Source: Actinoallomurus soli
GTDB taxonomy: Bacteria; Actinomycetota; Actinomycetes; Streptosporangiales; Streptosporangiaceae
Assembly: GCF_024055715.1 (NCBI RefSeq)
Contig: NZ_JAMXMV010000018.1
Location: 1-64,000 of the forward strand
Direction: 5' to 3'
Length of the DNA: 64,000 nt
In this document: positions 42,410 through 60,089 of the stretch, piece after piece
Position numbering within the stretch: position 1 is the stretch's first letter
Layout: the number at the start of each line of letters is the position of its first letter
Translations under genes and position numbers: made by a program
Notes under the pieces: generated by a model
The model's input: the letters and a program-made list of their open reading frames with translations, nothing else
What the model was told of the DNA's origin: nothing
Databases searched by the model: none

Positions 42410-44320
42410 CTACCAGCCGGGGTTCCCCGGCAGCGCCAGCGAGAGGTACTTGTCGTCTTCGGAGACCATCACGCCCAACCGGCAGCAGTCGTCCAGGAAG
42501 GCGGCGACCTCGCCCAGCGACAGGTCGAATCCGCCGTCGAGCAGCGACTGGTGGACGCGCTTACCCGCGCGCGCGGTGTCGCCGCACGCCTCGTACGCCT
42601 CGGCCTGCCAGCCGTGCAGCACGGCCTTCCGCGGCCTGCCCGAACGGGTGTCGAGGATCTTCAGCCTGCCGGGCAGACGCTCGTAGAACAGCACCGGCCG
42701 GTCGCCGCTCGCCCACCTGCGCTTCCACTCCAGAGCCGCGGACGTCAGGAGCTCGTGACTGTCCGCGGAGGCGACGTCCGAGGCTTCGAAGTCGAAGAAG
42801 TAGGCGATCCGCGAGTGGTCCAGCTCGGGCGGGTAGACGTAGGCGTAGCTCGCCTGCGGGCGGACGCCGGAGATCGCGAAGGACCGGTCCGTGAAGTACG
42901 GGCTGAAGCGTTCCAGCCAGATGCCGAGCTGGCCCGTGGGCGGTTGCAGGTGATAGAGCAGCGGGACCAACTCGGCCTGTTCGGCGTAGTCCTGGTCGGT
43001 CTCGCCGGGGAAGCCGCGCAGGATGTGCCATTCGGTGGAGATGCCGTGGTAGCGCGCCCATTTCAGCAGCCGGATGTTGATGAGCTTGCTGGAGCCCTTG
43101 CGCATCAGCCCGAGAACGTGGGTGCTCAGGCTCTCGATACCGGGCTGGATCCGCCGGACGCCGGCCCGTCGCATGACCGCCAGCTGCTCCCGCGTGAGGT
43201 TCGCCTTGACCTCGAAGAACAGGTTGAGGTCCCAGCGCCGCTCCGCCAGCTCGGCGCAGAACGAGGACAGGTACGCCATGTCGAGGATGTTGTCGACCGC
43301 GTCGACGCGGTGCGTCGGATGGGCCCGGAGGAGCTGTTCCAGGTCGGCGAATGCCCGCTCGCCGGCCTTGGAGCGGTAGTTCATGCCGAGGGCGTTCAGG
43401 CCGCAGAACGTGCAGTGGTGCTTCTGCCCCCACCAGCAGCCCCGGGAGAACTCCACCAGGAGCCGCACCTCGTCCTCGCCCAGAACGCGTGACCGGTCGT
43501 GCCGCTCCAGGGCGCGGAAATAGTCGTCATAGTCGGGCGCCGGAAGGGCGTTCAGGTCGTACGTGCGCGCCGACTCGCCCACGTCATCGTGATCCGTTCC
43601 CCGGCGACGCACGCCCGGGATCGGACGGGACACGCCGGCGGCGAGGTCGTGCAGCAGCGTGGGCAGGGCGATGTCCCCCTCCCCGGACACCACGTAGTCC
43701 AGCCACGGCAGTTTCTCGGCGTAGGCGATGCCCATCCCGCCGTCGAAGTTCGCGCCACCGTAGATCAACGGCAAGTCCGGGAAGCGTTCCTTCAGCCGGC
43801 GTCCCAGCGCGAGGGAGGCGGTGTTCTGCAGGAAGGTCGAGGAGAACCCGACGGCGTCGTAGGAGGACCAGTCCGCCAGGTCGAGACAGTCGTCGATCCA
43901 GGCGGGGAGGACCTCCCGGCGATAAGTGACCAACTGGTCGGGGCCGTTCTCCAGGATCGTCGACCAGGTCTCCGGCACCTCCGGGTACTCGGCGAAGTAG
44001 TCGGCCTCCGGCCGGATGTCCCCGAAGGCGGCGTAGGAGAACAGCCACTCTCCCAACTGGTGGAACCGGTCGTCGTTCATCCGCGCGATCCGGTCGTAGA
44101 TCCGGTGGCCCAGCAGGTCGCTCAGCTCGAGGTTGAGATAGAGCACGTCGCAGTGGTGGCCGGCCCTCTTGACGATCGCCTGCAGCAGACCGCACTGGAT
44201 GGAGGGCGAGTCGACCCAGCACCACGGCATGTTGACCAGGGCCACCCGCAGGGGCCGTGACGGGGGCCCGACCAGCTCCCGGGACGGATCCTTGGGCGCC
44301 AGCGGCAGCATTCTGGTCAT
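42410..44320 (-). CDS. RiPP maturation B12-binding radical SAM enzyme 1
   Basis: A protein of about 636 residues. An N-terminal cobalamin-binding Rossmann region (LRVALVNMPWCWVDSPSIQC, then DLPLIYGGANFDGGMG and YVVSGEGDIALP) precedes the radical SAM barrel. The cluster motif is Cys295-x7-Cys303-x2-Cys306 (CWWGQKHHCTFCGLNALG), an expanded form typical of the 'RiPP maturation radical SAM protein 1' group, which C-methylate peptides. The C-terminal part (about 560-636) looks like a winged helix. Start is uncertain: GTG 44401 would overlap the upstream stop, TTG 44365 has the best ribosome site (GGAGGGAGAGG), ATG 44320 gives the tightest N-terminus. It is cotranscribed with the second enzyme, divergent from the precursors. 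Confidence 0.9.
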   Translation of the reverse strand: MTRMLPLAPKDPSRELVGPPSRPLRVALVNMPWCWVDSPSIQCGLLQAIVKRAGHHCDVLYLNLELSDLLGHRIYDRIARMNDDRFHQLGEWLFSYAAFGDIRPEADYFAEYPEVPETWSTILENGPDQLVTYRREVLPAWIDDCLDLADWSSYDAVGFSSTFLQNTASLALGRRLKERFPDLPLIYGGANFDGGMGIAYAEKLPWLDYVVSGEGDIALPTLLHDLAAGVSRPIPGVRRRGTDHDDVGESARTYDLNALPAPDYDDYFRALERHDRSRVLGEDEVRLLVEFSRGCWWGQKHHCTFCGLNALGMNYRSKAGERAFADLEQLLRAHPTHRVDAVDNILDMAYLSSFCAELAERRWDLNLFFEVKANLTREQLAVMRRAGVRRIQPGIESLSTHVLGLMRKGSSKLINIRLLKWARYHGISTEWHILRGFPGETDQDYAEQAELVPLLYHLQPPTGQLGIWLERFSPYFTDRSFAISGVRPQASYAYVYPPELDHSRIAYFFDFEASDVASADSHELLTSAALEWKRRWASGDRPVLFYERLPGRLKILDTRSGRPRKAVLHGWQAEAYEACGDTARAGKRVHQSLLDGGFDLSLGEVAAFLDDCCRLGVMVSEDDKYLSLALPGNPGW

Positions 44321-44400
44321 CGCCCCGGTTCCCGCCGGTTCACCGGCGTCGGCCCTTGGGTGCAATTTTCCCTCTCCCTCCGCGGAGAACGCCGTGACCA

Positions 44401-46608
44401 CTAGAAGTCGCCGTGGAGCTGGGCGGTGAGCTTGATGAGCGCCCGCAGCCGGTCACGGTTCAGCACCTGTCCGGCGACCGGGATGGTGAACGCCCTGCCG
44501 GAGGGCAGCACCGCCACCGAGCTGTCGCCTCGGCGCGCGCTGCCTCGTCCGCCGAGCCAGGGGGCGATCGACGTACTGCTCGCGCCCCCGTTGCGCTTGA
44601 GGAGGAAGAACTGGTCCCGTACGTCCTCGAAGCCGGCGAACTCCTCGATGTTGGCGAACGGGATGGTCGGATCGCTGATCGGCACCAGATCGACGCCGGG
44701 GTCGTCGAGCGGCGGGTCCGGCCAGAGCCGTCGTCCGAACGCCGCGAAGTACAGCAGCGTGTGCGCCGTGTCGATCCCGCCGACGTACGGCCGGTCGTCC
44801 GAGGTGCGCCGGACGAGACTCATGCGCTCGTCGTCGACTCGTCGGTCGATCTCCCCGGGCCACCGGTTCGCCCCCTGGGTCGTGTCCCGCCAGGGCAGGT
44901 AACGCGCGATGTCCTCACTCGGGGGGAGGGGGAGGATCTCGACGGCGAACGCGCCGGGATTCTTGGCGACCATGGAGCCCGGCGTCAGGGAGAACGTCCC
45001 GATCCCGGCGAGCGACCACAGGTCGTCGTGTTCGAGCAGGAAGTCGTACGTGCGAGCCGCCTCGTCGTCGCGCTCGCCGGGGAACCCGGTGAACCCCATC
45101 ATCTGGGCGCCGATGTCGTACCTGGCCAGGTCGCGGAGGATGTCCGGCACGTCCGTGAGCCGCACGCCCTTGTCGATCAGGTCGAGCACGCGCTGCGACC
45201 CCGACTCGTAACCGAAGGAGATGGCGACGCAGCCGGCGTCCTTGAGCCTCTTGGCCATGTCCCGTTTGGGGAACGTGCGTTCCAGGCGGAGTTCGGCGCT
45301 CCAGCGGACCGGGTCGCGCAGGTCCTTCATGGCGTCGCAGAGCAGACGGAGGTAGCGCGGGGACATGGCGTCGACGGCGAAGTACACGGTACGGCCGACC
45401 CCGGTGATCTCCTCCAAGTCCTTGATCACCGCCTCGACGGGACGCTCCCTCGACGGCGAGGTCGGGCGATCGGAGTTCAGGCCGTAGTCGCAGAAGGTGC
45501 ACTTGTTCCAGTAGCAGCCTCGCGTGGGGCTGTACAGGATCACCGGCTCCGGCGACCAGTAGGCGTTCCAGTCCCAGACGTCGTAGGCGGGCGTCGGCAG
45601 GTCCGCGACGTTCTCGTAGTTGATCGACGGGGACGGCGCGGTGTCCTCGCGGGTCAGCACGCCCGGGATCCCGGCGAGGTCACGCCCGTCCCGCACGGCG
45701 GCGAGGATGTCGCAGAACGGCGTCTCTCCCTCGCCGGGGACGATGAGGTCGGCGTCGGTGAAGATCCGCCAGTAGTCGCCGGGGACACGGGCGAAACGGA
45801 CGTGGTCGCAGACCTCGGTTCCGCCGAACACGATGACGGTCTCCGGGCGGGCCGCGCGGATCTCCCGCGCGAGGCGCAGCGCCATCGGAAGCTGTCCGGT
45901 GTAGGCGACCGAGAGGCCGACCACCCGCCATTGGCGTTCCCCGATCACGTCGAGGAACGGCCCGCGGACGTAGGGATCGAACGGACCGGTCAGGCGGTCG
46001 ATCAGCGCGGGATCGCAGAGGTCCGCGTAGCAGGAGAGGTTCACCACCGGGCCGGGCCGGATCTGGAAGTCGGCGATGCTCTCGGGGACCCCGTCGAGGC
46101 AGAGCAACTCCTGCCAGCGGTTCATCGCCAGGACGGCCTGCCGGTAGGTCGGATGGTGGTAGAAGGACCGGCCGTCCCGGAAGATGTCGATGGCCCTGCC
46201 GACGAACTCCGGGCTGAGCCCCTCCGCGCCGAGCGCGGCGCGGTAGTCCAGCTCATCCGCCCTGGTGAGGTCGGTGGACGCCTCGATGCGCCTCCGCGTG
46301 GCGGCCGCCCGCTCCAGCAGCCGGCCGACGTTCTCCGGGCGCGCCAGATGGTTGAGCGCGTCGATGTTGGCGTCGACGCACCGGCCGCCGGAGAATCCCG
46401 CGCGCCGTGCCGCCGCCACGAGATAAGGAATCGAATGATAAGGCTGGGTCGGATCGGTCAGCGGCGGGTTGATCATCAAGTACGGCAGGTCGCTTTCCCG
46501 GCGCCGCCGGCCGCGGATCGCAGGCATTTCGGTCAGGAATGTGGCCACCCGTTCCTCCGCGGTCGCGCTGGAGTCCGTCCATCGGATTAATGATCGCGAG
46601 TTTGGCAT
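44401..46608 (-). CDS. RiPP cluster B12-binding radical SAM enzyme 2
   Basis: A 735-residue protein. A B12-binding domain (VVGLSVAYTGQLPMALRLAR, VIVFGGTEVCDHVRFARVPG, DADLIVPGEGETPF) is followed by a radical SAM barrel whose cluster motif is Cys365-x4-Cys370-x2-Cys373 (RGCYWNKCTFCDYG), one residue longer than the classic spacing. A long N-terminal region (1-190) starting PYLMINPPLTDPTQPYHSIP and a C-terminal 150-residue extension are accessory. It starts about 170 bases from the first precursor on the opposite strand. Substrate is inferred to be one of the NNNCLC precursors; peptide C-methylation or another B12 radical reaction is possible. Confidence 0.9.
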   Translation of the reverse strand: MPNSRSLIRWTDSSATAEERVATFLTEMPAIRGRRRRESDLPYLMINPPLTDPTQPYHSIPYLVAAARRAGFSGGRCVDANIDALNHLARPENVGRLLERAAATRRRIEASTDLTRADELDYRAALGAEGLSPEFVGRAIDIFRDGRSFYHHPTYRQAVLAMNRWQELLCLDGVPESIADFQIRPGPVVNLSCYADLCDPALIDRLTGPFDPYVRGPFLDVIGERQWRVVGLSVAYTGQLPMALRLAREIRAARPETVIVFGGTEVCDHVRFARVPGDYWRIFTDADLIVPGEGETPFCDILAAVRDGRDLAGIPGVLTREDTAPSPSINYENVADLPTPAYDVWDWNAYWSPEPVILYSPTRGCYWNKCTFCDYGLNSDRPTSPSRERPVEAVIKDLEEITGVGRTVYFAVDAMSPRYLRLLCDAMKDLRDPVRWSAELRLERTFPKRDMAKRLKDAGCVAISFGYESGSQRVLDLIDKGVRLTDVPDILRDLARYDIGAQMMGFTGFPGERDDEAARTYDFLLEHDDLWSLAGIGTFSLTPGSMVAKNPGAFAVEILPLPPSEDIARYLPWRDTTQGANRWPGEIDRRVDDERMSLVRRTSDDRPYVGGIDTAHTLLYFAAFGRRLWPDPPLDDPGVDLVPISDPTIPFANIEEFAGFEDVRDQFFLLKRNGGASSTSIAPWLGGRGSARRGDSSVAVLPSGRAFTIPVAGQVLNRDRLRALIKLTAQLHGDF

Positions 46609-46645
46609 GGCCGTCAGGTAATGGGAAGTCGTGGTCGTCGTGGTG

Positions 46646-46699
46646 TTCTTAAGACCGCTGGTGAGTGATTTTAGAACGCGCCGCGTCGTGTCTTAAGAA
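46646..46699. promoter_or_regulatory. Spaced inverted repeats TTCTTAAGAC/GTCTTAAGAA
   Basis: TTCTTAAGAC (46646-46655) and its exact reverse complement GTCTTAAGAA (46690-46699) sit 44 bases apart in the divergent promoter region of the RiPP cluster. Each half contains the palindrome CTTAAG, rare in this GC-rich sequence. The roughly four-turn spacing fits a dimeric regulator binding both halves and controlling both directions. Confidence 0.6.
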
Positions 46700-46776
46700 T
46701 CCGGTCGTCACGAGGGTGGACGGCGGCCTGGGCGCGACATATGTTCGCGGCAGTCCTCGACCACCAGGAGGTTTAC

Positions 46777-46965
46777 GTGTCCAAGGACCCACTCGCCCCG
46801 CTCAACGCGGCCGGTCTGCAGCGGCTCCCGGAGCCGATGAAGGCCGTGTTCGAGAACCTCAGCCCGGAAGAGCTGAGGGTCGCCAGCGCAATCCAGGAAC
46901 GACTCAACGCCGTGACGCCGGACTTCGAAGGCCAGAGCGCCGACAACAACAACTGCCTCTGCTGA
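46777..46965 (+). CDS. RiPP precursor peptide 1, core ending NNNCLC
   Basis: A 62-residue peptide. AGGAGG at 46766-46771 fixes the GTG start at 46777. The leader SKDPLAPLNAAGLQRLPEPM and LSPEELRVASAIQERLNAVT is helical and conserved with precursor 2; after PDFEGQ comes the short core SADNNNCLC, ending in a C-terminal Cys with a second Cys two residues before. Only about eight residues differ from precursor 2. Leader binding would be by the RRE of the maturation proteins. The C-terminal Cys is the expected substrate of the flavoprotein encoded at 48682. Confidence 0.9.
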   Translation: MSKDPLAPLNAAGLQRLPEPMKAVFENLSPEELRVASAIQERLNAVTPDFEGQSADNNNCLC

Positions 46966-46977
46966 CGGCAATTCCGG

Positions 46978-46995
46978 CCCACCATTCAGGGTGGG
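46978..46995 (+). terminator. Hairpin between the two precursor genes
   Basis: CCCACC (46978-46983) and GGTGGG (46990-46995) close a six-base loop 13 bases after the first precursor. It is short and likely a partial terminator or mRNA stabiliser that lets precursor transcripts outnumber those of the enzymes. Confidence 0.5.
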
Positions 46996-47039
46996 TCCGC
47001 CGCTGACGCGGTGAATCCTTCAATCACCAGGAGGTCTCC

Positions 47040-47234
47040 ATGTCCAAAGACTCGCTCGGCCCGCTCAACGCGGCCGGCCTGCAGCGGCTTCCGGAGCCGA
47101 TGAGGGCCGTGTTCGAAGACCTCAGCCCGGAGGAGCTGAGGGTGGCCAGCGCCATTCAGGAACGGCTCAACGCCGTGGCGCCGGACGTCGAAGGCCAGAT
47201 CAGCGACCCGAACAACAACAACTGTCTCTGCTAG
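47040..47234 (+). CDS. RiPP precursor peptide 2, core ending NNNNCLC
   Basis: A 64-residue peptide preceded by the same CACCAGGAGGT context as precursor 1, with ATG 47040 five bases after AGGAGG. Leader SKDSLGPLNAAGLQRLPEPM is nearly identical to its twin, and the tail reads GQISDPNNNNCLC. Differences between twins cluster just before the Asn run, suggesting that the Asn-Asn-Asn-Cys-Leu-Cys end is the functional product region. Tandem near-copies are common when a product is needed in quantity or as a two-component set. Confidence 0.9.
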   Translation: MSKDSLGPLNAAGLQRLPEPMRAVFEDLSPEELRVASAIQERLNAVAPDVEGQISDPNNNNCLC

Positions 47235-47263
47235 CGGATCTCCCGAACCGCGCTGGCGGAATT

Positions 47264-47291: not shown

Positions 47292-47317
47292 AGAACAAAC
47301 GCTGTGAGGTGAAGGAC

Positions 47318-48685
47318 ATGGGGGAGAAGGTCAGCCGATATGTGGTCGTCAGCGACCACGTCTACGGTGACGACGAAGGACTCCGGGTTTCGCTGCTCTA
47401 CGCGACACGGACCGCGAAGGCGCTGTTCGTCGTGCCGCGGATCGCCGACGCCGTACGGGCGGGCGACATCGGCGCGATCCCGCCGGCCACGCTCGCCCAG
47501 CTGAGACAGGCGCAGGCCGTGGTGCCGGACGGGGAGGACGAACTCGAGGCGATCCTGGAGCGCAACCGGACGGCCGCCCTCGACACCTCGGCGGCGAGCT
47601 TCATCCTGCTGCCCACGTCGTACTGCAACATGGGCTGCACGTACTGCGGGCAGGAGCACGTGCGGGGACGGCTGACCGCCGACCACCGCGACCGGATCCG
47701 CGCCCGGGTGCTGCGCGCCCTGCGGCTGCCGGCGACCCGGCAGTTGAACGTGGACTGGTTCGGCGCCGAACCGATGATGGGATACGCCGTCATCCGCGAC
47801 CTCGCTCCCGATTTCGTGCGCGCCGCCGCCGAGAAGGGCGTCGACTACACGTCCGCCATGGTGACCAACGGCTCCCTGCTGACCTCCAGGAACCTGGACG
47901 TCCTCATCCGGGAGTGCGGGATATCGAAATTCTTCCTCACGATCGACGGCCCGCCCGAGGTGCACGACGTGCACCGGCCGATGAAGAGCGGCCGCGGATC
48001 GTTCTGGAAGATCATCCGGACCGTCCGCGCGGCGCTCGACAATGACGACTACAGGCACGTGACGTTCGACTTCCGCACCAACGTCGACGTGCACAACCAG
48101 GACACCGTTCCCCGGTACATCGAGCTGATGGCCGAGCTGGGGTTCACCCGCCCGAACGTGAATTTCACCCTCGCCCGCGTGCGCCCCTGGGGGAACGACG
48201 TCTCGGCCATCGAACTGGCCGGAAGAGACTACGCCGAACGCGAGCTCTCCTGGCTGGCGGCCATGCAGGAACACGGCCTGCCGTTCTCGCGCCTGCCCAC
48301 CCTCGCCAAGAGGATCACCTGCCCGGCGGTGAAGCGCACGGCGGAACTGATCGGCGGCAACGGGAACATCTTCTCCTGCACGGACCACCCGCTCGTGCCC
48401 GAGGCGGAACGGACCAGCACGCTCGCGCACATCGCCCAGGCCGACCTGCCGGACATCCGCCCCAAGGGCGAGTTCGACGACTGGCACGACGAGGTCGCGG
48501 AGGGCAGGTCCTGGTGCAAGGACTGCGTCTTCCTTCCCACCTGCGGAGGCTCCTGCCCCAAGGCCTGGCACGAGGGCAATCCGCCGTGCCCGAGCTACCG
48601 GCACAACGTTCAGGGACGGCTCGACCTCATGGCCGGGCGGCTCGGCCTGCGGCCGGTCCCGGCGGATGGCCTGATGCCGCTGTGA
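47318..48685 (+). CDS. Radical SAM/SPASM peptide maturase
   Basis: A 455-residue radical SAM enzyme. The SAM cluster motif is Cys103-x3-Cys107-x2-Cys110 (SYCNMGCTYCGQE). The C-terminal SPASM region holds further cluster cysteines (WCKDCVFLPTCGGSCP and a Cys in NPPCPSYRHN) for one or two auxiliary clusters. This class makes thioether or carbon-carbon links in peptides. The N-terminal 95 residues could contain leader-recognition elements but no clear RRE is seen. The flavoprotein start overlaps its stop (GTGA). Its likely substrate is the Cys-Leu-Cys precursor pair. Confidence 0.93.
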   Translation: MGEKVSRYVVVSDHVYGDDEGLRVSLLYATRTAKALFVVPRIADAVRAGDIGAIPPATLAQLRQAQAVVPDGEDELEAILERNRTAALDTSAASFILLPTSYCNMGCTYCGQEHVRGRLTADHRDRIRARVLRALRLPATRQLNVDWFGAEPMMGYAVIRDLAPDFVRAAAEKGVDYTSAMVTNGSLLTSRNLDVLIRECGISKFFLTIDGPPEVHDVHRPMKSGRGSFWKIIRTVRAALDNDDYRHVTFDFRTNVDVHNQDTVPRYIELMAELGFTRPNVNFTLARVRPWGNDVSAIELAGRDYAERELSWLAAMQEHGLPFSRLPTLAKRITCPAVKRTAELIGGNGNIFSCTDHPLVPEAERTSTLAHIAQADLPDIRPKGEFDDWHDEVAEGRSWCKDCVFLPTCGGSCPKAWHEGNPPCPSYRHNVQGRLDLMAGRLGLRPVPADGLMPL

Positions 48686-49263
48686 AGAGCCACTTCAACC
48701 TGCTCGTGGGCGCCAGCGGCGCGGCCAACGTGATCAACCTGCCCGGTTACCTGATCGCGCTGCGGCGGCTGCCACGGGTCCGGGTGCACGTGGTCATGAC
48801 GGCCACCGCGGCACGGCTGCTGCCGATCGAGACCGTACGCCTGGTGAGCGACGCGGCGTACGGCGAAGGGGACGGCAATCTCGATCCCGGCCACGCGCGG
48901 CTGGCGGCCTGGGCGGACCGGTTCATCGTGCTGCCGGCGACCGCGCACACGCTGGCACAGGTGGCGCACGGGTTCGCCGGGAACCTGCTGACCGCGACCC
49001 TGCTGGCGCACCAGGGCTCGGCGATCTTCTTCCCCAGCATGAACGCGGCGATGTGGCAGAAACCGAGCGTGCGGCGGAACGTCGCCCAGCTACGGGCGGA
49101 CGGGTACCACGTCGCCGACCCGGTGATGGCGCCGGCCTGGGAGATCGCCGGCGAGTCCGTCCGTACCGGGCCGGGGCTGCCGTCACCGGCGCAGGTCGCC
49201 GGGATCATCGAAGAGATCATCTCGCCACACCTGACCGCCGTGCCAGACGAGGAGGCGCGGTGA
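48682..49263 (+). CDS. EpiD-type cysteine decarboxylase flavoprotein (HFCD family)
   Basis: A 193-residue FMN flavoprotein. It shows the phosphate loop LLVGASGAANV, the active-site His71 in HARLAAWAD, the PASANT-like PATAHT (85-90) and the PxMNxxMW motif PSMNAAMW (118-125). Members oxidatively decarboxylate a C-terminal Cys of peptides to an aminoenethiol, as EpiD and TvaF do, or act on phosphopantothenoylcysteine. The precursors here end exactly in Cys, so peptide decarboxylation is strongly suggested. GTG 48682 and the next gene GTG 49260 both overlap their neighbour's stop. Confidence 0.9.
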   Translation: MKSHFNLLVGASGAANVINLPGYLIALRRLPRVRVHVVMTATAARLLPIETVRLVSDAAYGEGDGNLDPGHARLAAWADRFIVLPATAHTLAQVAHGFAGNLLTATLLAHQGSAIFFPSMNAAMWQKPSVRRNVAQLRADGYHVADPVMAPAWEIAGESVRTGPGLPSPAQVAGIIEEIISPHLTAVPDEEAR

Positions 49264-50546: not shown

Positions 50547-50571
50547 AGCGATCAGAGAGCGGGAGAGGCGA

Positions 50572-50754
50572 ATGGCATTCGACGCGCTGTCGGCCTTACG
50601 GGAGAGCGGCCACTGGGTGGACCTGCTCTCGGCGGACCAGAGACGGGTCCTGGCCGAGCTCACCGAGGACGAGGTGAGGTTGCTCAACCGGATCAAACAC
50701 CGGCTCGACGAAGCGGCCCCGGACGTCCAGGGCCAGGAACTCAAGTTGCTGTGA
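50572..50754 (+). CDS. Third leader-like peptide without a Cys core
   Basis: A 60-residue peptide from ATG 50572, with GGGAGAGG three bases upstream. RRVLAELTEDEVRLLNRIKH and RLDEAAPDVQGQ align with the leader end of precursors 1 and 2 (VFENLSPEELRV and RLNAVTPDFEGQ), but it ends ELKLL with no Cys, Ser, Thr core. The N-terminal part FDALSALRESGHWVDLLSAD resembles, from memory, the 'aroma-sacti' leader group of actinomycetes. It may be a second precursor whose product is the tail, or a leader decoy that activates or regulates the YcaO/RRE proteins. Confidence 0.8.
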   Translation: MAFDALSALRESGHWVDLLSADQRRVLAELTEDEVRLLNRIKHRLDEAAPDVQGQELKLL

Positions 50755-50769
50755 CGAAAGCGAGCCTCG

Positions 50770-53700: not shown

Positions 53701-53880
53701 CCGTGCCTGCGCGGCGACGCGTGGTTCGAGTACGCGGTCATCTCGCGTGCGGCGGGCCGGACGGAGGAGGCGGCGTGGGCCGTCGCCGAGGCCGAGACCT
53801 GCTACACCGCGAAGGGCGCGAACCTCCCCGCCGGCGCGGCACGCCGGTGGGCCGCGGCGACGATGGGCGGTGAGGCATGA
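50770..53880 (+). CDS. Nucleotide cyclase/AAA ATPase/TPR signalling protein
   Basis: A 1036-residue protein: an N-terminal zinc ribbon (Cys7, Cys10, Cys21, Cys24), a class III nucleotidyl cyclase domain (metal Asp47 in FIDLVDST, Asp91 in EKFIGDAVMAVFG, then VGDTVNTAARLQ), a P-loop ATPase (GEPGMGKTRLV near residue 258, Walker B-like LILVWEELQWAEP) and a long C-terminal TPR-like helical repeat. The cyclase site has both metal Asp and the Asn-Arg pair, so it may be active. Such proteins are often pathway-linked regulators. Its stop overlaps the protease ATG. It adjoins the third peptide by 15 bases. Confidence 0.9.
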   Translation: MSDHTACRACGARLSEGHRFCPFCGAVVEVTEPGPDVRKSVAVLFIDLVDSTVLGERFDPELLHGVLRRYYGVCGDAVTAYGGVIEKFIGDAVMAVFGLPVSHEDDALRAAQAAMSIVEAVPRLAAELQLPGLGLKVHCGVASGEVAVISGPGVDLRIVGDTVNTAARLQSAAPPGEVLINAEAAHLVRGRIGLEELGPLSLKGKAEPARVWRATAAAPEQALVRAPLIGRSAELASLTACYRQVVADRECRHVLVVGEPGMGKTRLVQEFLARIPPDEAVVLTGSCQPYGRDITFHPLQSMLRDSLPGGLPSVERLLGEDERARRTLSAVAGEDPGRLPAGVEEIRWAVVRLFTALAERRPLILVWEELQWAEPMLAALIENLTGDLAGLPILVVRVARDEPPSSTGRTIRLGPLDPADTSTLVGALSSGLAEVTAQQERPVMAGIAERSGGNPLFATMLIGALADGDPAMAAYGDPGTLADGDPAAPELPPTISALLRARIDALPAAEKRTLQWAAACGRDFDLDQLRALGGEDGAPDGDVARPLAGLTRRGLVHRLPSGRLQCAQVLIRDTCYGMTAKTLRARWHALLSDRAGPPGEAMYHAERSALLYRDVGPDDPRLAALSDRAVRLLVAEGTTALHRRDTGASRSLFERALRLLTEHGRRYADVTIRLSEALLARGDGEGALRVLDEGARRVDAAHRITVGLQRDIVGFRLGRTGFDAARASLDRYEADLRDRPDDHLNRCLLHQFRGFVELSADRVGRAEAAFRDALDRARRLDEPWIADRLSSALCELVQWSPTTVAEGLTLCDELCRRFAADRLLLIPVLTTRARLLALAGDVAGARATLASAREDASAMHAALPEIAISQSEAVLLSLVGEHTAAGGRFAEAAGMLRGQGHLQPALTLQVYAAREMLRAGREEAAARAIAELEENELVARARIWLRLLRARLACAAGRAGEGFHRARWALDALETDDPCLRGDAWFEYAVISRAAGRTEEAAWAVAEAETCYTAKGANLPAGAARRWAAATMGGEA

Positions 53881-54788
53881 CGCATCCCTGGCATCGGCCG
53901 GCCACCGAGCACTTCCCGGGCGTCCCCGCCTGGGGGGTGCCGACCTCACAGGTGCCGCTCCAGACCCTGCCCGTCGTCCACCTGGAGAACGTCACCCCCG
54001 AATGGGCGTGGGGCGGCGCCGACGGCGGCGGTGTGCGGGTCTGCATCGTCGACAGCGGGGTCGACGGCACCCACCCGCAGGTGGCGCCGGTGGACGAGGC
54101 GATGACCGTGGTCTTCGGCGAGGACGGCGATCCGAGCATCGTGCCGACCGAGCCCGTGGACACCGCCGGTCACGGCACCGCGTGCGCGGGCATCGTACGG
54201 TCGATGGCGCCCGGCGTGTCCCTGTCGTCGATGCGGGTGCTGACCGACTCGATCGCCGGGACCGGCCGGGCGCTGCTGGCGGGCCTGGAGTGGGCGATCG
54301 ACGCCGGGTTCGACGTCATCAACCTGAGCCTGGCGACGCGGAAACCGGAGTTCGTCCCGGCGCTCCACGACCTGGCCGACCGGGCGTACTTCCGGCGCTC
54401 GGTGCTGGTGGTCTCGGCGCACAACATGCCGGTCCGCAGCTTCCCGTGGCCGTTCGCCTCGGTCGTGTCGGTGGCCAGCCACGACCAGGGCGATCCCTTC
54501 CTGCACTACTACAACCCCTCTCCGCCCGTGGAGTTCTACGCCAACGGGGTCGGCGTGCCGGTGGCGTGGCCGGGCGGCGGGCGGACCCGAAGCTCCGGCA
54601 ACAGCTTCGCCGCCCCCCACATCACCGGGCTGTGCGCGCTGATCCTGAGCAAGCACCGCTGGCTCACGCCGTTCCAGCTCAGGTCGGTGCTCTACCAGAC
54701 CGCCAAGAACGTCATCGGAGTCGACCATGCCGCTGCAGAACTACTCGCTCCCGGACACCCGCACGGACCAGACCGCGTCGCTCACTGA
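53877..54788 (+). CDS. Cytosolic subtilisin-like S8 peptidase
   Basis: A 303-residue S8 serine protease. The catalytic triad is Asp59 (VDSGVDG), His99 (GHGTACAG) and Ser243 (SGNSFAAPH), with the oxyanion Asn183. There is no signal peptide or propeptide, so it acts in the cytosol, likely removing the leader of the modified peptide. ATG 53877 overlaps the preceding stop. Its 3' end overlaps the next gene by 62 bases in another frame. Confidence 0.93.
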   Translation: MTHPWHRPATEHFPGVPAWGVPTSQVPLQTLPVVHLENVTPEWAWGGADGGGVRVCIVDSGVDGTHPQVAPVDEAMTVVFGEDGDPSIVPTEPVDTAGHGTACAGIVRSMAPGVSLSSMRVLTDSIAGTGRALLAGLEWAIDAGFDVINLSLATRKPEFVPALHDLADRAYFRRSVLVVSAHNMPVRSFPWPFASVVSVASHDQGDPFLHYYNPSPPVEFYANGVGVPVAWPGGGRTRSSGNSFAAPHITGLCALILSKHRWLTPFQLRSVLYQTAKNVIGVDHAAAELLAPGHPHGPDRVAH

Positions 54789-55401
54789 ACGGCAGCTCCT
54801 GTACTCGGTGGTGGAGATCGCCCGCAACGTCTTCGGCGCGGCGGCGTCGTCGATCTTCCTGATCGACGACGACACCGGAGAGCTCGTCTTCGAGGCGGTC
54901 GCGGGGGAGGGCGACGCCCACCTGCCGGGGACCCGCTTCCCCGCCGGCACCGGCATCGCGGGGTGGGTGGCGACGAGCGGCCAGCCGATGTACGTCGACG
55001 ACCTGTCCGGCAGCACGCGGTTCGCCAGGGACGCGGCGGCCTCGACCGGGTACGTGCCGGACAAGCTCATGGCCGCCCCCCTGATCCGCGGCGAGGACTG
55101 CATCGGAGTGCTGGAGGTCCTCGACGCCTCGCAGACCTCCCGCAGTGAACTGACCGACCTGGACCTGCTCGGGCTCCTCGCGATCCAGGCCGCCATCAGC
55201 CTGGAGATCTTCATCCGCGCGCACCGGCGCCCGACCGTCCCCCGCCAGGCCGGTCCCCACCCGGCCGGCGACGACCCGTACCTGCTGGTGGCCCGGATCG
55301 GAGACGGGCTGAGCACGGCGGGCCCGGCCGCGGTGACGCTGGCGACCACCCTGCTGAAGGCCGCCGCCGACGTCGTCGCCGGTGGGCGGCCGCCCGCGTG
55401 A
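54727..55401 (+). CDS. GAF-domain protein of the RiPP operon
   Basis: A 224-residue protein with a GAF domain (about 15-165: AASSIFLIDDDTGELVFEAV, LPGTRFPAGTGIAGWVATSG, MAAPLIRGEDCIGVLEVLDA) and a C-terminal tail rich in Pro and Ala. GAF domains bind cyclic nucleotides or other small ligands. A class III cyclase is encoded two genes upstream, so a cyclic nucleotide signal is an attractive but untested link. ATG 54727 has GGAG seven bases upstream and lies inside the protease gene. Confidence 0.87.
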   Translation: MPLQNYSLPDTRTDQTASLTERQLLYSVVEIARNVFGAAASSIFLIDDDTGELVFEAVAGEGDAHLPGTRFPAGTGIAGWVATSGQPMYVDDLSGSTRFARDAAASTGYVPDKLMAAPLIRGEDCIGVLEVLDASQTSRSELTDLDLLGLLAIQAAISLEIFIRAHRRPTVPRQAGPHPAGDDPYLLVARIGDGLSTAGPAAVTLATTLLKAAADVVAGGRPPA

Positions 55402-56369
55402 TCCCCGGCGAGGAGAGGGTGGTCTTCTTCACGCGGGCGGCCGACGCGGAGGTGTCGGAACTGGAACGGCTCCTCGCCCTGCTCGGCGTCCCCTCCCTGC
55501 GGATCGACGCCGACGTCCTCGGCCCGATCCAGGTCGAGCCGACCACCCCGGCGACCATCCGGATCGGCGGCCGGGCCGTCCGCCCCACGGCGAGCTGGAC
55601 GCGCAGGTTCTGGGCCTCCGCCATGCCGCCCGCGCGCACCCCGGTCGACGTGCTGCACCGGGACAGCTGGCTCGCCCTCGCCGCCCAGCTCGCCAGGTCG
55701 GCCCCGGCCGCGCTGCCGGGCCCGCGCATGGGGCTCCTGGAGCAGCTTACGGAGGCCGCCGCGAGCGGCGTGGGCGTCCCGGCGACCGTCGTCGGCACGG
55801 ACCTGGCCGAAGCCGCCGACCTGCTGCCCGGTGACCGGCTGATCGTCAAGGTGCTGGACACGCACTTCGTCGAATCGGCGCCGGGCACGCTGCACGGCTT
55901 CCTCCCGTGCGTCCTGCCGCGCGCGGAGGTCGCCGGGCTCGCCACGACCTCACGGGTCCCGCTCGTCGTCCAGGGGTACGTGCCGCACACGGCCGAGTAC
56001 CGCGTCTACGCCATGTGCGGTGAGCTGATCACCTTCGAGGTGCGCAAGCCCGCGCCGGACGCGATCTGGCGGGATCCGGACGCGGTCGCCGTCCGCGCCG
56101 TCGACGCCCCCGCGGACGTGGCCGCGGCCGTCGCCGGCCTCGCCGAACGCTGGTCTCTCGGCTATGGCGCGTTCGACGTGCTCGCCACTGAGGACGGCAC
56201 CGTGTTCCTGGAGGTGAACGCCGACGGCGACTGGCGATGGTACGAGGCCAAGGCCGGTGTCCGGACGGTCAGCCGGGCGCTCGCGCTGATGCTCCGCGAC
56301 CTGCACATCGCCTGCGGCGGAACGGTCACGCGGTCCGGGTTCGACCTGCTGACGGTGATGGCCGGTTGA
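55398..56369 (+). CDS. ATP-grasp peptide ligase
   Basis: A 323-residue ATP-grasp protein resembling RiPP ligases such as the MvdD/graspetide group. Segments DRLIVKVLDTHFVESA, LVVQGYVPHTAEYRVYAMCG and GYGAFDVLATEDGTVFLEVN (metal-binding Glu and Asn) are ATP-grasp marks. It could form omega-ester or amide bonds on acidic or Asp-type residues or add an amino acid. It starts at GTG 55398 overlapping the GAF gene stop. The third peptide carries Asp and Glu but the NNNCLC precursors have few acidic core residues. Confidence 0.85.
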   Translation: MIPGEERVVFFTRAADAEVSELERLLALLGVPSLRIDADVLGPIQVEPTTPATIRIGGRAVRPTASWTRRFWASAMPPARTPVDVLHRDSWLALAAQLARSAPAALPGPRMGLLEQLTEAAASGVGVPATVVGTDLAEAADLLPGDRLIVKVLDTHFVESAPGTLHGFLPCVLPRAEVAGLATTSRVPLVVQGYVPHTAEYRVYAMCGELITFEVRKPAPDAIWRDPDAVAVRAVDAPADVAAAVAGLAERWSLGYGAFDVLATEDGTVFLEVNADGDWRWYEAKAGVRTVSRALALMLRDLHIACGGTVTRSGFDLLTVMAG

Positions 56370-56380
56370 CCGCATTCGAC

Positions 56381-56407
56381 GGGTTCAACGGGTTCAACGG
56401 GTTCGAT
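56381..56407. repeat. Three 9-bp tandem repeats upstream of the YcaO gene
   Basis: GGGTTCAAC occurs at 56381-56389 and 56390-56398, and GGGTTCGAT at 56399-56407, between the ATP-grasp stop and the YcaO ribosome site. If translated from TTG 56366 it would encode a Phe-Asn-Gly repeat; from GTG 56420 it is untranslated. Confidence 0.7.
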
Positions 56408-56419
56408 GGGGAGGCGCGT

Positions 56420-57730
56420 GTGGGACAGCGGTCCGCACTTCTGGACCTGGCCGGGCCGTACGGCGCGGTCGGCCGGCCGCGGCGGGTCAACACCTACGGC
56501 TGGATGCCGAACGAGTGCGTGTTGTACACGGCGTCCACGGGCAACCCCTCGGCCGTGACCGGGCCGTTCCGGGCCGACGCGCGCGTCGGCCACGGCACCG
56601 GCAGGGCGTACGGCGACGCGGATCGGGCGCGGCTGCTCGCGGTGGCCGAGGCGCTGGAGCGGTACTCGGGCCTCGTCGCCCCCGAACGCGGCGTGGTCGT
56701 GGCCTCGGCCGCCGAACTGGGCGACGACGCGCTGGACCTGGACCTGATCGCGCGGTGTTCGCCCCGGGAACTGCGCAGGCCCGGCTGCCCGGTCCACGCC
56801 CCCGACGGGACCCGGCCGATCCGCTGGACCGAGGCCGTGAACCTGCGCACGGGCCGGCCGGTGCTCGTCCCGGCCGTGCTGGTGTTCCTCACGTTCCCCG
56901 AGTCGGCGGCCGAGAACTTCTGGATCCCCATCTCCACCGGCTGCGCCGTCCACCGCACCGTCGAGGCGGCCGTGGTCAACGCGCTGTGCGAGTTGATCGA
57001 ACGCGACGCCCTCGCGCTGACCTGGCTGCTGCGGCGGCCTCTCCCACGGCTGGCGGAGGACCGCCTGCCGGACTCGGCGCGGTCCATCCTCGCCTGGTGC
57101 GCCGACCACGGCATCGAGTCCTTCCTGTACGACGCCACCACCGATGTCGGGGTGCCGGTCGTGTACTGCCTGCAGATCGCCGAGCACACGTCCCGCACCG
57201 GTCAGCTCGTGGGCGCGGCCTGCGGGTTCGGCGGCGCCTCGCTGACCGAGCACGCCCTGCTGGAGGCCATGGGGCTACGACTGGGGATCGAGAGCCGGCC
57301 GGCGCCACCTCGCCGGTACGCCGACCATCGGGTGGTGGACGACGGGGCGGCCGTGATGGCCGCGCGGGCCCGCCGGGAGGCCTTCGGGTTCCTGCGCGGC
57401 GGCCTCCCGGCGTCCCACCCGGCCGGTGACCTCTCGGCGTCTCGTCCGGTCGGCGGCGATCCGGGCTCGGACCGGGCGCGCCTGGAGTTCCTGCTGCGGC
57501 GGCTGGCGGAGCTGGGCATGACGGTGCTGATGGTGGACCTGACGACGCGCGAACTGCGGGACAGCGGCCACGTCGCCGTCCGGGTGATCGTGCCCGAGCT
57601 GCAGCCGATGTCGGCCCGCCCGCTGGTGCAGTACCGCGCCCACCCCCGGCTCCGCACCGCCGCCGAGCGGATGGGGCTGCCGCCCCTGCCCGAACGGCGC
57701 CTCAATCCCTATCCGCAACCGATGGCGTGA
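56420..57730 (+). CDS. YcaO-domain cyclodehydratase
   Basis: A 436-residue YcaO protein. ATP/Mg-binding Glu and Arg lie in VAEALERYSG (about residue 77) and ELIERDALALTW (about 190). The C-terminus ends in PYPQPMA, the PxPxP motif that completes the cyclodehydratase active site. YcaO enzymes phosphorylate backbone amides so that Cys, Ser or Thr cyclise to azolines, or activate amides for thioamide or amidine. GTG 56420 has GGGGAGG five bases upstream; TTG 56366 is a possible earlier start. The partner E1-like parts are the next two genes. Confidence 0.93.
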   Translation: MGQRSALLDLAGPYGAVGRPRRVNTYGWMPNECVLYTASTGNPSAVTGPFRADARVGHGTGRAYGDADRARLLAVAEALERYSGLVAPERGVVVASAAELGDDALDLDLIARCSPRELRRPGCPVHAPDGTRPIRWTEAVNLRTGRPVLVPAVLVFLTFPESAAENFWIPISTGCAVHRTVEAAVVNALCELIERDALALTWLLRRPLPRLAEDRLPDSARSILAWCADHGIESFLYDATTDVGVPVVYCLQIAEHTSRTGQLVGAACGFGGASLTEHALLEAMGLRLGIESRPAPPRRYADHRVVDDGAAVMAARARREAFGFLRGGLPASHPAGDLSASRPVGGDPGSDRARLEFLLRRLAELGMTVLMVDLTTRELRDSGHVAVRVIVPELQPMSARPLVQYRAHPRLRTAAERMGLPPLPERRLNPYPQPMA

Positions 57731-58275
57731 GGCCCATGGACGACGACACCGCGACGGACGTACGGATCGCGGCCGACGGCGACTTCGGCGCCGTGTTCGC
57801 CGAGCACCTGCGCGGCCTCCTCGCCTCGGTCGGGGGACCGGTGCGCACGGGGACGCCGCGGATCGACGTCCGGGCCTCCTGGCGGGACGTGCCGGCGGAG
57901 TTCGCGGCGTTCGGGGCCGCGGCGCGTCCCGCGCCCTGGCTGCCGGTCGCGGTGGCCCACCCGTACATCCGCGTCGGCCCGCTGTTCGTGTCAGGCCGGG
58001 CTCCCTGCCACACCTGCTTCCGCACCCGGGCACGGCAGCACGAGGACCCCGTGGAGGAGGAGATCAGGCAGCGGCTCGCCGCCGATCCGGGACTCGGAGT
58101 GCGCGGATTCCTGCCGTACCAGTCCATGATCGCCGCCGGGCTGGCGCTGGCGTTGCTGCAGGGTGAGGAGAGGGGAACGGTCGCCGTGATCGACTGCCGT
58201 ACCGATGAGGTGGCCACCTGGCGCGTGACACCCGCGGAACAGTGCCCCGGCTGCGACGACGGGACGGACCGATGA
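57727..58275 (+). CDS. Zinc-binding E1-like fragment (TOMM C-protein type)
   Basis: A 182-residue protein. The segment HPYIRVGPLFVSGRAPCHTC, with Cys94 and Cys97, and the C-terminal CPGC (Cys173, Cys176) match the zinc site of E1-like/Ocin-ThiF-type cyclodehydratase partners, whose usual form reads VGPLVVPGRxPCLRC. The Rossmann ATP-binding part is missing, so this appears to be half of a split protein, the other half being the next gene. GTG 57727 overlaps the YcaO stop; ATG 57736 is an alternative. Together they should present the leader peptide to the YcaO. Confidence 0.82.
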   Translation: MRPMDDDTATDVRIAADGDFGAVFAEHLRGLLASVGGPVRTGTPRIDVRASWRDVPAEFAAFGAAARPAPWLPVAVAHPYIRVGPLFVSGRAPCHTCFRTRARQHEDPVEEEIRQRLAADPGLGVRGFLPYQSMIAAGLALALLQGEERGTVAVIDCRTDEVATWRVTPAEQCPGCDDGTDR

Positions 58276-60089
58276 GCCGCTACCCGCGCCGCAGGGAGGG
58301 GCTGGCGTTCGTCCCGACCGACGACGGCTACATCGTGGACGGCGGGCCACGGCGGGAGCACCTGACCGGGCGGTTGGCGCGCGAGGCGCTGCCCGTGCTG
58401 TTCGGCCTGATGGACGGGACCAGGACCGTCGAGCAGATCGGGGACGCGCTCGGCGTGCCCGTCGACCCGATCGTGGACCTGCTCGTGGAGCGCGACCTCG
58501 TGCGGTACGAGGCGGCGCCGGACCCCCACCCGTCGTGGATCTTCCTGCGGCGGTCCCTGCCCGCCTCCCGGGCGGACGGCGTGTGGCGACGGCTGCGGGC
58601 CGCACGCGTCACCGTCATCGGCGACGACCCGGTGGCCGGGCTGCTCGCCGCGTTGCTCCGCCAGTCCGGCGTCGGGACCGTCGACCGCTCCGGCGGTCCT
58701 GCGGATCTGACCGTCGCGGTGGTGAGCGGTCCCGAGGTGCCCGCCGCCCCGCCGACCGGGGCCTTCCTGCCGGTACGGACGGACTCGGCCGCTCTCCCGA
58801 TCGGCGGGATCGACCGCGATCCGGCCCGGGCGGCCGTCACCGCCGGGATCGCCGCCGGAATCGTCCTGCGCCGTCTCTCCGGGTACCGGCCGGCCGGGCT
58901 CTGGGAGGAGACGGAGACCGCCGAGGGAATGACGGCTGCCGGGGGCAGGGCGGCCGCCGAGGGCAGGGTGGTCGGCGCGGACCTGGAGTCCGCCGCTGGG
59001 ATGGGAGCCACCGCGCGGTCGGGATCCGCCGCGGGGACAGGAGCGGCTGCGGGCAGGGGAGCCGTCGTGGGGACGGGAGCCGTCGTGGGGACGGGAGCCG
59101 TGGCGCGGTTGGGAGCCCTGGCGGAGGTGGGAGCCATGGCGGAGGTGGGAGCCATGGCGGGGATGGAGGCGGCCGGGGAAATGGTGCCTGCCGTGCGTCC
59201 GGCGCCCCCCGCCAAGTGGTACCTGACCGAGCGCCGTGTCCCCCTGCGGCGCAGCCCGCATCCGCTCGTTCGAACGATGTCCTGGATACTGGCCGGCCGG
59301 CGGCTCGCGCCCGCGGCCGCGCCGCGCGCCGCCGTCCGGACGTACCTGGTGGGCGACCTCACCGGCGGCGGCCACCGGGCCTACGCCGTCGACCTGGCCG
59401 CGGGCGCCTTGGTCGAGCTGCCCGGAACGGTGAAGCCGGGCGGTGACGTCGTCACCGTGGTGCTGACCGGCGACCGGACGTGGCCGCAGGGCACGGCCGG
59501 CGAGCGGCTGCTCCACGGCGACACGGGTCTGCTGATCGCGCAGCTCGCCGATGACGCCCGGTCCGCCGGCTGGAGCGTCCGGACGCGCGACGCCGACGGC
59601 CGCGCGGACGCGCTCGATCTCGATCCGGACCGGGAGCGCGTGACCGCCGTTCTCGACCTCGCCCCGGTCCGCCGGGTCGCACGCCCGTCCCGGCGCCGGC
59701 GGCGTCCGCCGGGCCATCGCTTCGGCGATCCGGCCCGCGACATGAGCCGCCTGACGAGGCTCGCCGGCCTCGGCCTCGGCCGGGCGGACGAGATCTGCCC
59801 CGATGGGCGGGTGCGGTACGCCTGCCGTCCGCGCGGTGCGCTCGGGTGGGTCGGCGAATATCTGGACGATCGAGGCCTCGCGGCCGCGGCGGTGCTGCTG
59901 TTCACCGGCGAAGCGGACGCCCGCCTCGTGACCAAGGCCGCGGTGGCGGCGGGGACGGTCCGCCTCCTGGCGGCGAGCGCGGGAATCGGGGCCGGGCTCA
60001 TCGCCGGCCTCGCCGACCATGACCCGCACGTGCTCTACGGCTGCGTGCTCGCAGACCCGGGGCGGCTCCCCGCGGCCGTCGTTCGATGA
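58272..60089 (+). CDS. RRE-containing YcaO partner protein with degenerate domains
   Basis: A 605-residue protein. Residues 1-85 form a winged helix of the RRE/PqqD type (FVPTDDGYIVDGGPRREHLT, LMDGTRTVEQIGDALGVPVD) that binds leader peptides. Next comes a worn Rossmann segment ARVTVIGDDPVAGLLAALLR without GxGxxG, then a Gly/Ala-rich low-complexity stretch (about 215-300), then a C-terminal region (about 315-560) that weakly resembles SagB-like nitroreductase dehydrogenases but lacks clear FMN residues. ATG 58272 overlaps the previous stop. It is probably the leader-binding scaffold of the YcaO complex. Confidence 0.83.
   Translation: MSRYPRRREGLAFVPTDDGYIVDGGPRREHLTGRLAREALPVLFGLMDGTRTVEQIGDALGVPVDPIVDLLVERDLVRYEAAPDPHPSWIFLRRSLPASRADGVWRRLRAARVTVIGDDPVAGLLAALLRQSGVGTVDRSGGPADLTVAVVSGPEVPAAPPTGAFLPVRTDSAALPIGGIDRDPARAAVTAGIAAGIVLRRLSGYRPAGLWEETETAEGMTAAGGRAAAEGRVVGADLESAAGMGATARSGSAAGTGAAAGRGAVVGTGAVVGTGAVARLGALAEVGAMAEVGAMAGMEAAGEMVPAVRPAPPAKWYLTERRVPLRRSPHPLVRTMSWILAGRRLAPAAAPRAAVRTYLVGDLTGGGHRAYAVDLAAGALVELPGTVKPGGDVVTVVLTGDRTWPQGTAGERLLHGDTGLLIAQLADDARSAGWSVRTRDADGRADALDLDPDRERVTAVLDLAPVRRVARPSRRRRRPPGHRFGDPARDMSRLTRLAGLGLGRADEICPDGRVRYACRPRGALGWVGEYLDDRGLAAAAVLLFTGEADARLVTKAAVAAGTVRLLAASAGIGAGLIAGLADHDPHVLYGCVLADPGRLPAAVVR
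58940..59165 (+). repeat. In-frame 18-bp tandem repeats in the RRE-protein gene
   Basis: Units GGAGCCGTCGTGGGGACG (59058-59075, 59076-59093) and GCGGAGGTGGGAGCCATG (59121-59138, 59139-59156) are exact tandem pairs within a wider Gly/Ala/Val-coding array. Each unit is six codons, so frame is kept. It is a flexible, expandable linker between domains. Confidence 0.75.

Follow-up and report, generated by a model that had tools for sequence, protein, structure and literature searches.

A conserved RiPP gene cluster of Actinoallomurus soli with a predicted SPASM- and HFCD-built Asn-Cys ring and a recurrent protease cassette

The cluster occupying positions 42410-60089 in a 64,000-nt stretch of Actinoallomurus soli DNA (GCF_024055715.1, contig NZ_JAMXMV010000018.1, forward strand; hereafter the window) carries radical SAM, flavoprotein, ATP-grasp and YcaO enzymes next to small leader-bearing peptides and raises the question of whether these genes serve a single RiPP pathway or two fused neighbors, and which chemistry stands at its heart. 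By means of Pfam and NCBIfam profile searches and the list of open reading frames, every gene named there by the first-pass annotation was found to be present, and its description of the second block as translationally chained was borne out by overlapping stop and start codons (e.g., TTGA at 56366).

Twenty-three core loci, comprising the window and loci of Streptosporangiales, Streptomyces and Streptacidiphilus, were compared. The SPASM enzyme, the HFCD flavoprotein, the MFS exporter and the B12 radical SAM protein R2 are each encoded in 23/23 of them, and since this core set recurs in 22 loci other than the window, the cluster is not a chance grouping. In most core loci the second block (pC, CYC, S8, GAF and ATP-grasp) adjoins the first, even where it is inverted, and the two are adjacent wherever the contig reaches far enough, with partial exceptions in L046, in which the first block still adjoins S8, GAF and YcaO while pC, CYC and ATP-grasp are missing, and L054, where only CYC and ATP-grasp remnants persist with no S8 or GAF. 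Thus, the single pathway favored at first reading gained support, and blocks consistently lying apart, named then as the observation that would speak against it, were not encountered, adjacency being kept even in inverted Streptomyces-type loci. The notion that two independent clusters, one of radical SAM and one of YcaO/ATP-grasp type, abut here by chance draws on the existence of the CYC-S8-GAF cassette elsewhere without SPASM or HFCD and on relatives of the YcaO trio that, judged by eye, adjoin thiopeptide-like precursors in L038 and L040; set against the adjacency maintained across Streptosporangiales and Streptomycetaceae despite inversion, and against the same leader and like junction in pA, pB and pC, it is extremely unlikely and already largely refuted. 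Considering the observed gene content, synteny, invariant residues and shared motifs, we assign a probability of about 0.6 to one RiPP system in which HFCD and SPASM would form a ring, tailoring enzymes would decorate it, S8 would cleave, MFS would export and pC, CYC and GAF would exert control; in this single-pathway reading each chemical step, the step order and the control logic are what we infer.

The leader initially noticed in all three peptides is real, since each exceeds the 30-bit cut-off of NF045560 (“aroma-sacti”): pA (46777-46965, plus strand; GTG start taken from the sequence; core SADNNNCLC) with 46.0 bits, pB (47040-47234, plus; core ISDPNNNNCLC) with 50.8 and pC (50572-50754, plus), a leader-like small protein with the tail ELKLL, with 81.5. 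This domain is rare in the phylum (6/396 genomes at E <= 0.001, the window’s own included), and the StsA-related NF045559 with its cut-off of 75 bits is not reached by any of the three (pB 15.9, pC 34.1, no match of pA at E 0.05). Precursor cores end with N-x-[LV]-C, and among 24 non-duplicate pA-type ORFs (27 minus three duplicates, from 22 loci with 16 distinct cores) Asn(-4) and Cys(-1) are the only invariant residues, so that the NNN of NNNCLC, stressed at first, is not the conserved part; position -3 is V in 15, C in 6, T in 2 and S in 1. The pattern that collected the 27 ORFs demanded a terminal Cys, and a separate search free of this demand revealed no pA-type ORF lacking it. A ranthipeptide-type Asn-x-x-Cys is present in 24/24, and NxxC terminates the core in the core loci and in L137 wherever the contig holds the precursor, which is cut off in L053. 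L137 possesses an independent SPASM+HFCD pair (46%/40%) and a tiny precursor ending with HVNIAC. Peptides with NxxC, mostly chosen by a search for N..C near the ORF end, also lie within about 5 kb in 10 of 11 distant SPASM loci (about 4-5 kb away in L034 and L138), while L043 has a DxxC peptide.

The enzymes expected to act on these two residues are encoded next to the precursors. The SPASM radical SAM protein (47318-48685, plus; PF04055), a predicted Asn-Cys thioether synthase, has the cysteines of a SPASM radical SAM enzyme, as expected for NxxC-type ranthipeptides (CNMGCTYC plus a cluster of Cys residues near the C-terminus, 400-424), stays under the cut-off of the best 25 of 54 matching NCBIfam models (top TIGR04463, 176 vs 525) and has 5wgg as its best solved relative (46.5 bits). 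The HFCD protein (48682-49263, plus; PF02441), a predicted C-terminal Cys decarboxylase, is closest to MrsD among solved relatives (1p3y/5h75; 148 bits), also matches EpiD (87 bits) and holds the PxMNxxMW signature of EpiD/MrsD-type decarboxylases as PSMNAAMW, in keeping with the EpiD-type flavoprotein claimed at the outset. In the best reading, HFCD would remove CO2 from the C-terminal Cys(-1) and so give an enethiol, and SPASM would join the sulfur of this residue to Asn(-4) by an alpha- or beta-thioether, closing a four-residue aminovinyl-thioether ring without Ser/Thr dehydration. In the classical AviCys route of lanthipeptides, linaridins and thioamitides, the decarboxylated Cys would instead add to position -3, where a Ser, Thr or Cys would have been dehydrated, leaving SPASM some other task. 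An HFCD of the MrsD/EpiD kind and the presence of C, T or S at -3 in 9/24 non-duplicate ORFs are compatible with it, but Val, which is not dehydratable, occupies -3 in 15/24; in the Pfam and NCBIfam lists none of the cluster genes matches a lanthipeptide dehydratase or cyclase family, the Dha/Dhb-supplying dehydratase of Avi(Me)Cys pathways included; and 12 other HFCD loci of the class (three with thioamitide-like precursors), taken as a control, do not possess the CxxxCx[FYWH]C radical SAM motif, sought with this spacing only, in long ORFs of the 13 kb fetched. Because -3 is so often Val, this route was set aside as the main reading, and we consider it very unlikely. Alternatively, the cluster may represent a sactipeptide or ranthipeptide pathway whose product has a C-terminus left free or decarboxylated in a separate step, with SPASM making the Asn-Cys thioether and HFCD acting on another peptide or only trimming the carboxylate afterwards. 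SPASM relatives accompanied by NxxC and no detected HFCD (L034, L065, L136, L138) agree with this, and a C-terminal Cys likewise occurs beside SPASM enzymes for which no HFCD was detected (L065, L136, L138, L067-L069), which means that HFCD and ring formation may be separate steps; however, HFCD is present in 23/23 core loci and in L137, with cores ending in NxxC, and EpiD-type enzymes need a free thiol, so that this version appears unlikely.

A ring built jointly by SPASM and HFCD, as preferred here, has partial counterparts among known systems. According to available passages of PMC8326336, the SPASM-type radical SAM enzyme NxxcB cross-links the NxxC motif of a Streptococcus ranthipeptide as a single Cys-Asn beta-thioether (Cys23-Asn20 in NxxcA); enzyme type and Asn-x-x-Cys motif are alike, whereas here the Cys is C-terminal and HFCD, B12 radical SAM and the S8 cassette are added. 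AviCys systems (EpiD/MrsD, LanX/RosX, TvaEF, KinHI), as far as described in the accessible parts of PMC12291118 and PMC9415263, share the use of HFCD on a C-terminal Cys, with an enethiol and a short ring at the C-terminus as the probable outcome in both cases, although here neither a dehydratase nor a LanC or kinase-fold cyclase was found and the partner residue would be a radical SAM-activated Asn. The sactipeptide StsA/StsB/StsC (Precord 2023, via passages of PMC12710340) has the same leader domain NF045560, and L113 and L114 carry CMCG precursors, StsA-like in appearance, beside the same pC-CYC-S8-GAF cassette; unlike StsA, pA and pB remain under the NF045559 cut-off and have a C-terminal NxxC core, and StsB is not among the best 25 of 54 NCBIfam models matching SPASM. 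The branch 6 ATP-grasp loci, with precursors mostly unidentified, resemble the cluster in that ATP-grasp is accompanied by a SPASM enzyme, by adenylate cyclases and by YcaO, yet HFCD, an NxxC core and the S8/GAF cassette are not mentioned in the available passages of PMC8939145. Titles, abstracts and some passages of the open-licence literature contained no system uniting a SPASM enzyme with HFCD, which agrees with the earlier remark that no described pathway was known to combine this gene set with an NNNCLC precursor.

The part of the first-pass annotation that did not stand is the central place of YcaO in the second block. The YcaO cyclodehydratase (56366-57730, plus; TTG start) and the E1-like TOMM leader-binding partner (57727-58275, plus) do exceed their TOMM cut-offs (TIGR03604, 263.3 vs 219.25 bits; TIGR03882, 53.3 vs 36.9), and the third protein (58272-60089, plus), with no family match in Pfam or NCBIfam, shows by eye an RRE-like N-terminus plus an E1-like part and has homologs adjoining YcaO in other loci. 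However, YcaO occurs in 5/23 core loci and is absent from 18/23, while R1 (42410-44401, minus; TIGR03975, 611.9 bits vs cut-off 282), a B12 radical SAM RiPP C-methyltransferase, occurs in 4/23; both are clade-specific additions, peripheral to a pathway that is otherwise one, and the second block is rather a recurrent pC-CYC-S8-GAF cassette, met also with other peptide maturases and without SPASM/HFCD. Since YcaO/E1/RRE and R1 do not belong to the core, bottromycin and thioviridamide, suggested at first, are not the models. Bottromycin-like pathways have YcaO and B12 radical SAM as core and a follower-type precursor, whereas the conserved leader here is N-terminal. TOMM/thiopeptide YcaO complexes share the trio, as noted for L038 and L040, but here one or no heterocyclisable residue stands beside the terminal Cys and no azoline dehydrogenase is seen. 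R2 (44401-46608, minus), which exceeds the Pfam cut-offs for radical SAM and, narrowly (32.7 vs 32.1), B12-binding and reached the cut-off of no model in the NCBIfam search, is probably a C-methyltransferase that would tailor the core. Further changes would come, in the Streptosporangiales branch, from R1 as C-methylation and from YcaO with its partners as an azoline at Cys/Thr(-3). Action of R1 on NNN was rejected for want of clean tracking: all four R1 loci have NNN, and L062 has it without R1. For YcaO and Cys/Thr(-3), two changes on the tree, read as about one gain and one loss, make covariation suggestive only; L062 combines Thr(-3) with the absence of a neighboring YcaO, and in the L049 genome YcaO genes are found away from the locus (four matches on three contigs). 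A ParB/HTH-type protein (60157-61044, minus; PF02195), a probable cluster regulator, lies near the cluster also in the 5 related Streptosporangiales genomes.

Within the cassette, CYC (50770-53880, plus) joins a zinc ribbon, nucleotide cyclase, AAA ATPase and TPR, as recognized by Pfam, with zinc ribbon and TPR under cut-off, and by the motifs FIDLVDST, EKFIGD, GDTVNTAAR and Walker A. The S8 subtilisin-like protein (53877-54788, plus; PF00082, Asp/His/Ser motifs), a predicted leader protease, falls under the cut-offs of the mycosin and QhpE models and is read as cytosolic because it has no obvious signal peptide. Its relatives occur in 43/200 genomes of the family; close by and on the same strand, GAF (54727-55401, plus; PF01590 in the window) flanks S8 in 23/24 and CYC in 22/24 other S8 loci, L118 being without either and L138 having CYC 3.6 kb from S8, while a looser count (any match with E <= 0.001 anywhere in the stretch) gave both in all 24. 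Both pA (as DFEGQ) and pB carry a [DE]V-x-G-Q-type junction, and peptides of S8 loci often share [DE]V-x-[AG]-[HQ], a probable cleavage signal. This pattern, written after examples were seen and not fitted by the window’s own pA, was found in 42/2772 small ORFs of 24 S8 loci (spread over 22) versus 6/2367 in 18 control loci (over 6); coding-like ORFs outside the leader family number 19 in 11 S8 loci, 8 of them copies in L106, versus 2 in 2 control loci. Small ORFs of L112 and L119 gave no match, and the sole matches in L116 and L118 look non-coding. S8 would cut the precursor at this junction, and the MFS protein (49260-50546, plus; PF07690) would export the product.

The role of pC may be bound up with the ATP-grasp enzyme (55398-56369, plus), which has no Pfam match, has TIGR04187 as its best NCBIfam model and scores under cut-off in TIGR04187/04185/04184. 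Conceivably, ATP-grasp closes the [DE]-x-K of pC, which would then be a graspetide precursor: the tail [DE][LIVF]K[LV][LVIM] is found in 30 loci, 22 with ATP-grasp, and pC, CYC and ATP-grasp are missing together from L046. Nevertheless, in six loci (L106, L107, L109, L110, L113, L114) the tail is present although the stretch fetched contains no ATP-grasp (in L058 and L063 the sequence stops before this can be judged), which weakens pC as a simple graspetide, L105, L108 and L112 have ATP-grasp with no pC found, and all Streptomyces-type loci (16/16) encode pC as a fusion with a LuxR HTH; we find this role rather unlikely. The control arm favored instead would consist of pC as leader-like peptide, CYC as cyclase-ATPase and GAF as possible cyclic-nucleotide sensor, through which expression would be tied to processing. 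The fusion of pC with LuxR hints at a regulator copying a RiPP precursor.

A broader picture can be offered tentatively, at somewhat less than even odds: a new aminovinyl-ring route, in which SPASM and HFCD act on C-terminal Asn(-4)-Cys(-1) with no dehydrated residue, would be combined with a portable cassette of leader-mimic pC, nucleotide cyclase-STAND ATPase, S8 and GAF, governing cleavage and expression and common to unrelated radical SAM peptide systems via a V-x-[AG]-[HQ] cleavage code. Streptomyces would carry this mimic inside a LuxR factor, and processing of the factor’s own RiPP-like tail would report pathway status. The combination of C-terminal NxxC, SPASM and HFCD offers a sequence rule for finding more such systems, and the junction motif with the CYC-S8-GAF cassette a testable system of leader removal and control for uncharacterised actinobacterial peptide clusters.

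Every gene named in the first-pass annotation of the cluster (42410-60089) was found at its place. The two B12 radical SAM enzymes, R1 (42410-44401; TIGR03975, 612 bits) and R2 (44401-46608; radical SAM and B12-binding domains), lie on the minus strand, and the plus strand carries, in this order, the precursors pA and pB, the SPASM radical SAM enzyme, the EpiD/MrsD-type flavoprotein HFCD, the MFS protein, the leader-like small protein pC, the cyclase/AAA protein CYC, the S8 protease, GAF and ATP-grasp proteins, YcaO, an E1-like protein and a larger partner protein, with stop and start codons overlapping in many of these genes. Motifs checked in SPASM, HFCD, CYC, S8 and YcaO are intact, pA, pB and pC each score high enough to pass the NCBIfam threshold for the aroma-sacti domain (NF045560), and the SPASM relative in a genome of the same genus (G091) is 95% identical. 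The ParB/HTH regulator encoded at 60157-61044 on the minus strand is probably a further member, as judged from gene neighborhood: homologs with 72-89% identity lie near the cluster, at either end of it, in five related Streptosporangiales genomes, and a search of the Streptomyces-type stretches, where a LuxR-pC fusion is present, detected none (E <= 1e-5). Upstream of the cluster, at 37157-39341, two adjacent and similar ORFs encode substrate-binding proteins.

Relatives of SPASM were collected by a scan of named genomes (26 relatives) and from two further genome sets. With duplicates set aside (L134, L139 and L140 equal L064, L063 and L058, respectively; L030-L033 match L045, L046, L048 and L049), the core set comprises 23 distinct loci, the window counted, and SPASM, HFCD, MFS and R2 are present in each of them. 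S8 and GAF are found in 19 of 23, as is ATP-grasp, and pC is tallied in 22, a number including a cross-match in L046, which by other searches lacks pC as well as CYC and ATP-grasp. S8 and GAF are absent from L053, L058 and L063, where contigs end, and L054 retains only remnants of CYC and ATP-grasp. The second block, beginning with pC, has the opposite orientation in loci from Streptomyces and Streptacidiphilus, where it still adjoins the first. The first-pass annotation had favored one hybrid pathway with YcaO and radical SAM chemistry over two fused neighbors, to be given up should the two blocks consistently occur apart; they stay adjacent in most core loci, even where inverted, and the proposal of one pathway therefore stands. 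YcaO and R1 prove to be additions within one clade (5/23 and 4/23 core loci), inside which YcaO is missing again in L049.

Searches for pA-type ORFs yielded 27 in 25 loci; three are duplicates, and the remaining 24, from 22 loci, represent 16 different cores. No residue other than Asn(-4) and Cys(-1) is the same in all 24; position -2 is Leu or Val, and position -3 is Val in 15, Cys in 6, Thr in 2 and Ser in 1. The regular expression used demanded a C-terminal Cys, and in a profile search without this demand every pA-type match still ends in Cys. In PMC8326336, the SPASM enzyme NxxcB joins Cys23 of the peptide NxxcA to its Asn20 through a beta-thioether. Among distant SPASM loci (31-48% identity), 10 of 11 have an NxxC peptide within about 5 kb, most of these ORFs having been picked via an N..C search near the ORF end: NGIC (L034, L066), NNIC (L065), NWGC/NDSC (L067), NVSC/NFGC (L068, L069), NGGC/NNSC (L070), NGVC (L136), NIAC (L137) and NFGC (L138), those of L034 and L138 not adjoining SPASM. 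The one locus without NxxC, L043, has DFGC. At 2426-4599 of L137, SPASM (46%) and HFCD (40%) accompany a peptide of 22 residues with HVNIAC as its C-terminus; the two enzymes are thus paired outside this leader family as well. BLAST detected no S8 cassette in the 14 kb fetched for this locus.

The tail [DE]-x-K-[LV]-[LVIM] of pC is common to 30 loci, in six of which the stretch examined has no ATP-grasp; the search pattern matched 32 pC and leaves some out. Another type of pC has an aromatic end (for example GGALF, GGLLF or AGLW) and occurs in L080, L081, L117, L120, L122, L123, L124 and L138. In 16/16 Streptomyces-type loci (L050-L052, L054-L064, L133, L135), pC continues the reading frame of an upstream LuxR/GerE HTH as one fusion protein, with no intervening stop; the spacing between motifs varies from 183 to 318 bases and is always a multiple of three. 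Weak NF045560 relatives also lie beside CYC homologs in the distant actinobacteria L082-L084. Thus, the tail without ATP-grasp, the LuxR fusion and the CYC-adjoining relatives make pC look tied to CYC and regulation, not to ATP-grasp.

Of 200 genomes of the family, 43 have an S8 relative, and the 46 places where one is encoded include five core clusters. The cassette was sampled in 24 loci, namely 21 of the 41 non-core places (L105-L124, L034) and Streptomyces L080, L081 and L138. In 23 of them, S8 has a GAF gene on its own strand no more than 600 bases away, and in 22 a CYC gene on that strand no more than 1500 bases away; both are missing nearby in L118, and in L138 CYC is 3.6 kb away. A pC-like peptide is present in 16/24, ATP-grasp in 6/24, and a gene with the radical SAM motif in many, none being found by this search in L115-L118 and L121. 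The peptides of these loci differ in leaders and cores and have [DE]V-x-[AG]-[HQ] in common, as in IDVVAH (L105), PDVVAH or PDVIAH in eight tandem copies (L106), EVVAHS (L109), EVEAH ahead of CMCG (L113) and DVEGHS (L138). This pattern, set down after the examples had been seen, matches 42 of 2772 small ORFs, in 22/24 S8 loci, versus 6 of 2367, in 6/18 control loci. The leader family itself accounts for 18 of the 42, and 19 of the other 24 are coding-like, in 11 loci (eight being the L106 copies); control loci gave two coding-like ORFs outside the family, in two loci. The motif is a probable S8 cleavage signal, and the S8 protein itself scores below cut-off with the mycosin (100 bits) and QhpE (93 bits) models. 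As separate observations, the eight small ORFs at L106:3521-5180, with tail WCG or similar, adjoin a radical SAM gene and the S8 cassette, and precursors with CMCG, StsA-like by eye, accompany a pC-CYC-S8-GAF cassette in L113 (11917-14133) and L114.

We infer each chemical step of the following order: HFCD, a predicted Cys decarboxylase, would act first, followed by SPASM, tailoring, S8 cleavage and MFS export. Position -3 is Cys or Thr in all five YcaO loci, and Cys is never found there without YcaO; it is plausible that YcaO acts at this position, but the association amounts to roughly one gain and one loss. The best match of the HFCD profile is mersacidin MrsD, with 148 bits, versus 87 bits for EpiD. 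In 12 other HFCD loci of the class (13 kb fetched each), the CxxxCx[FYWH]C radical SAM motif was found in a long ORF in none, and three (L158-L160) have thioamitide-like precursors. Within the literature searched, a radical SAM enzyme as the ring-closing partner of HFCD would be new.
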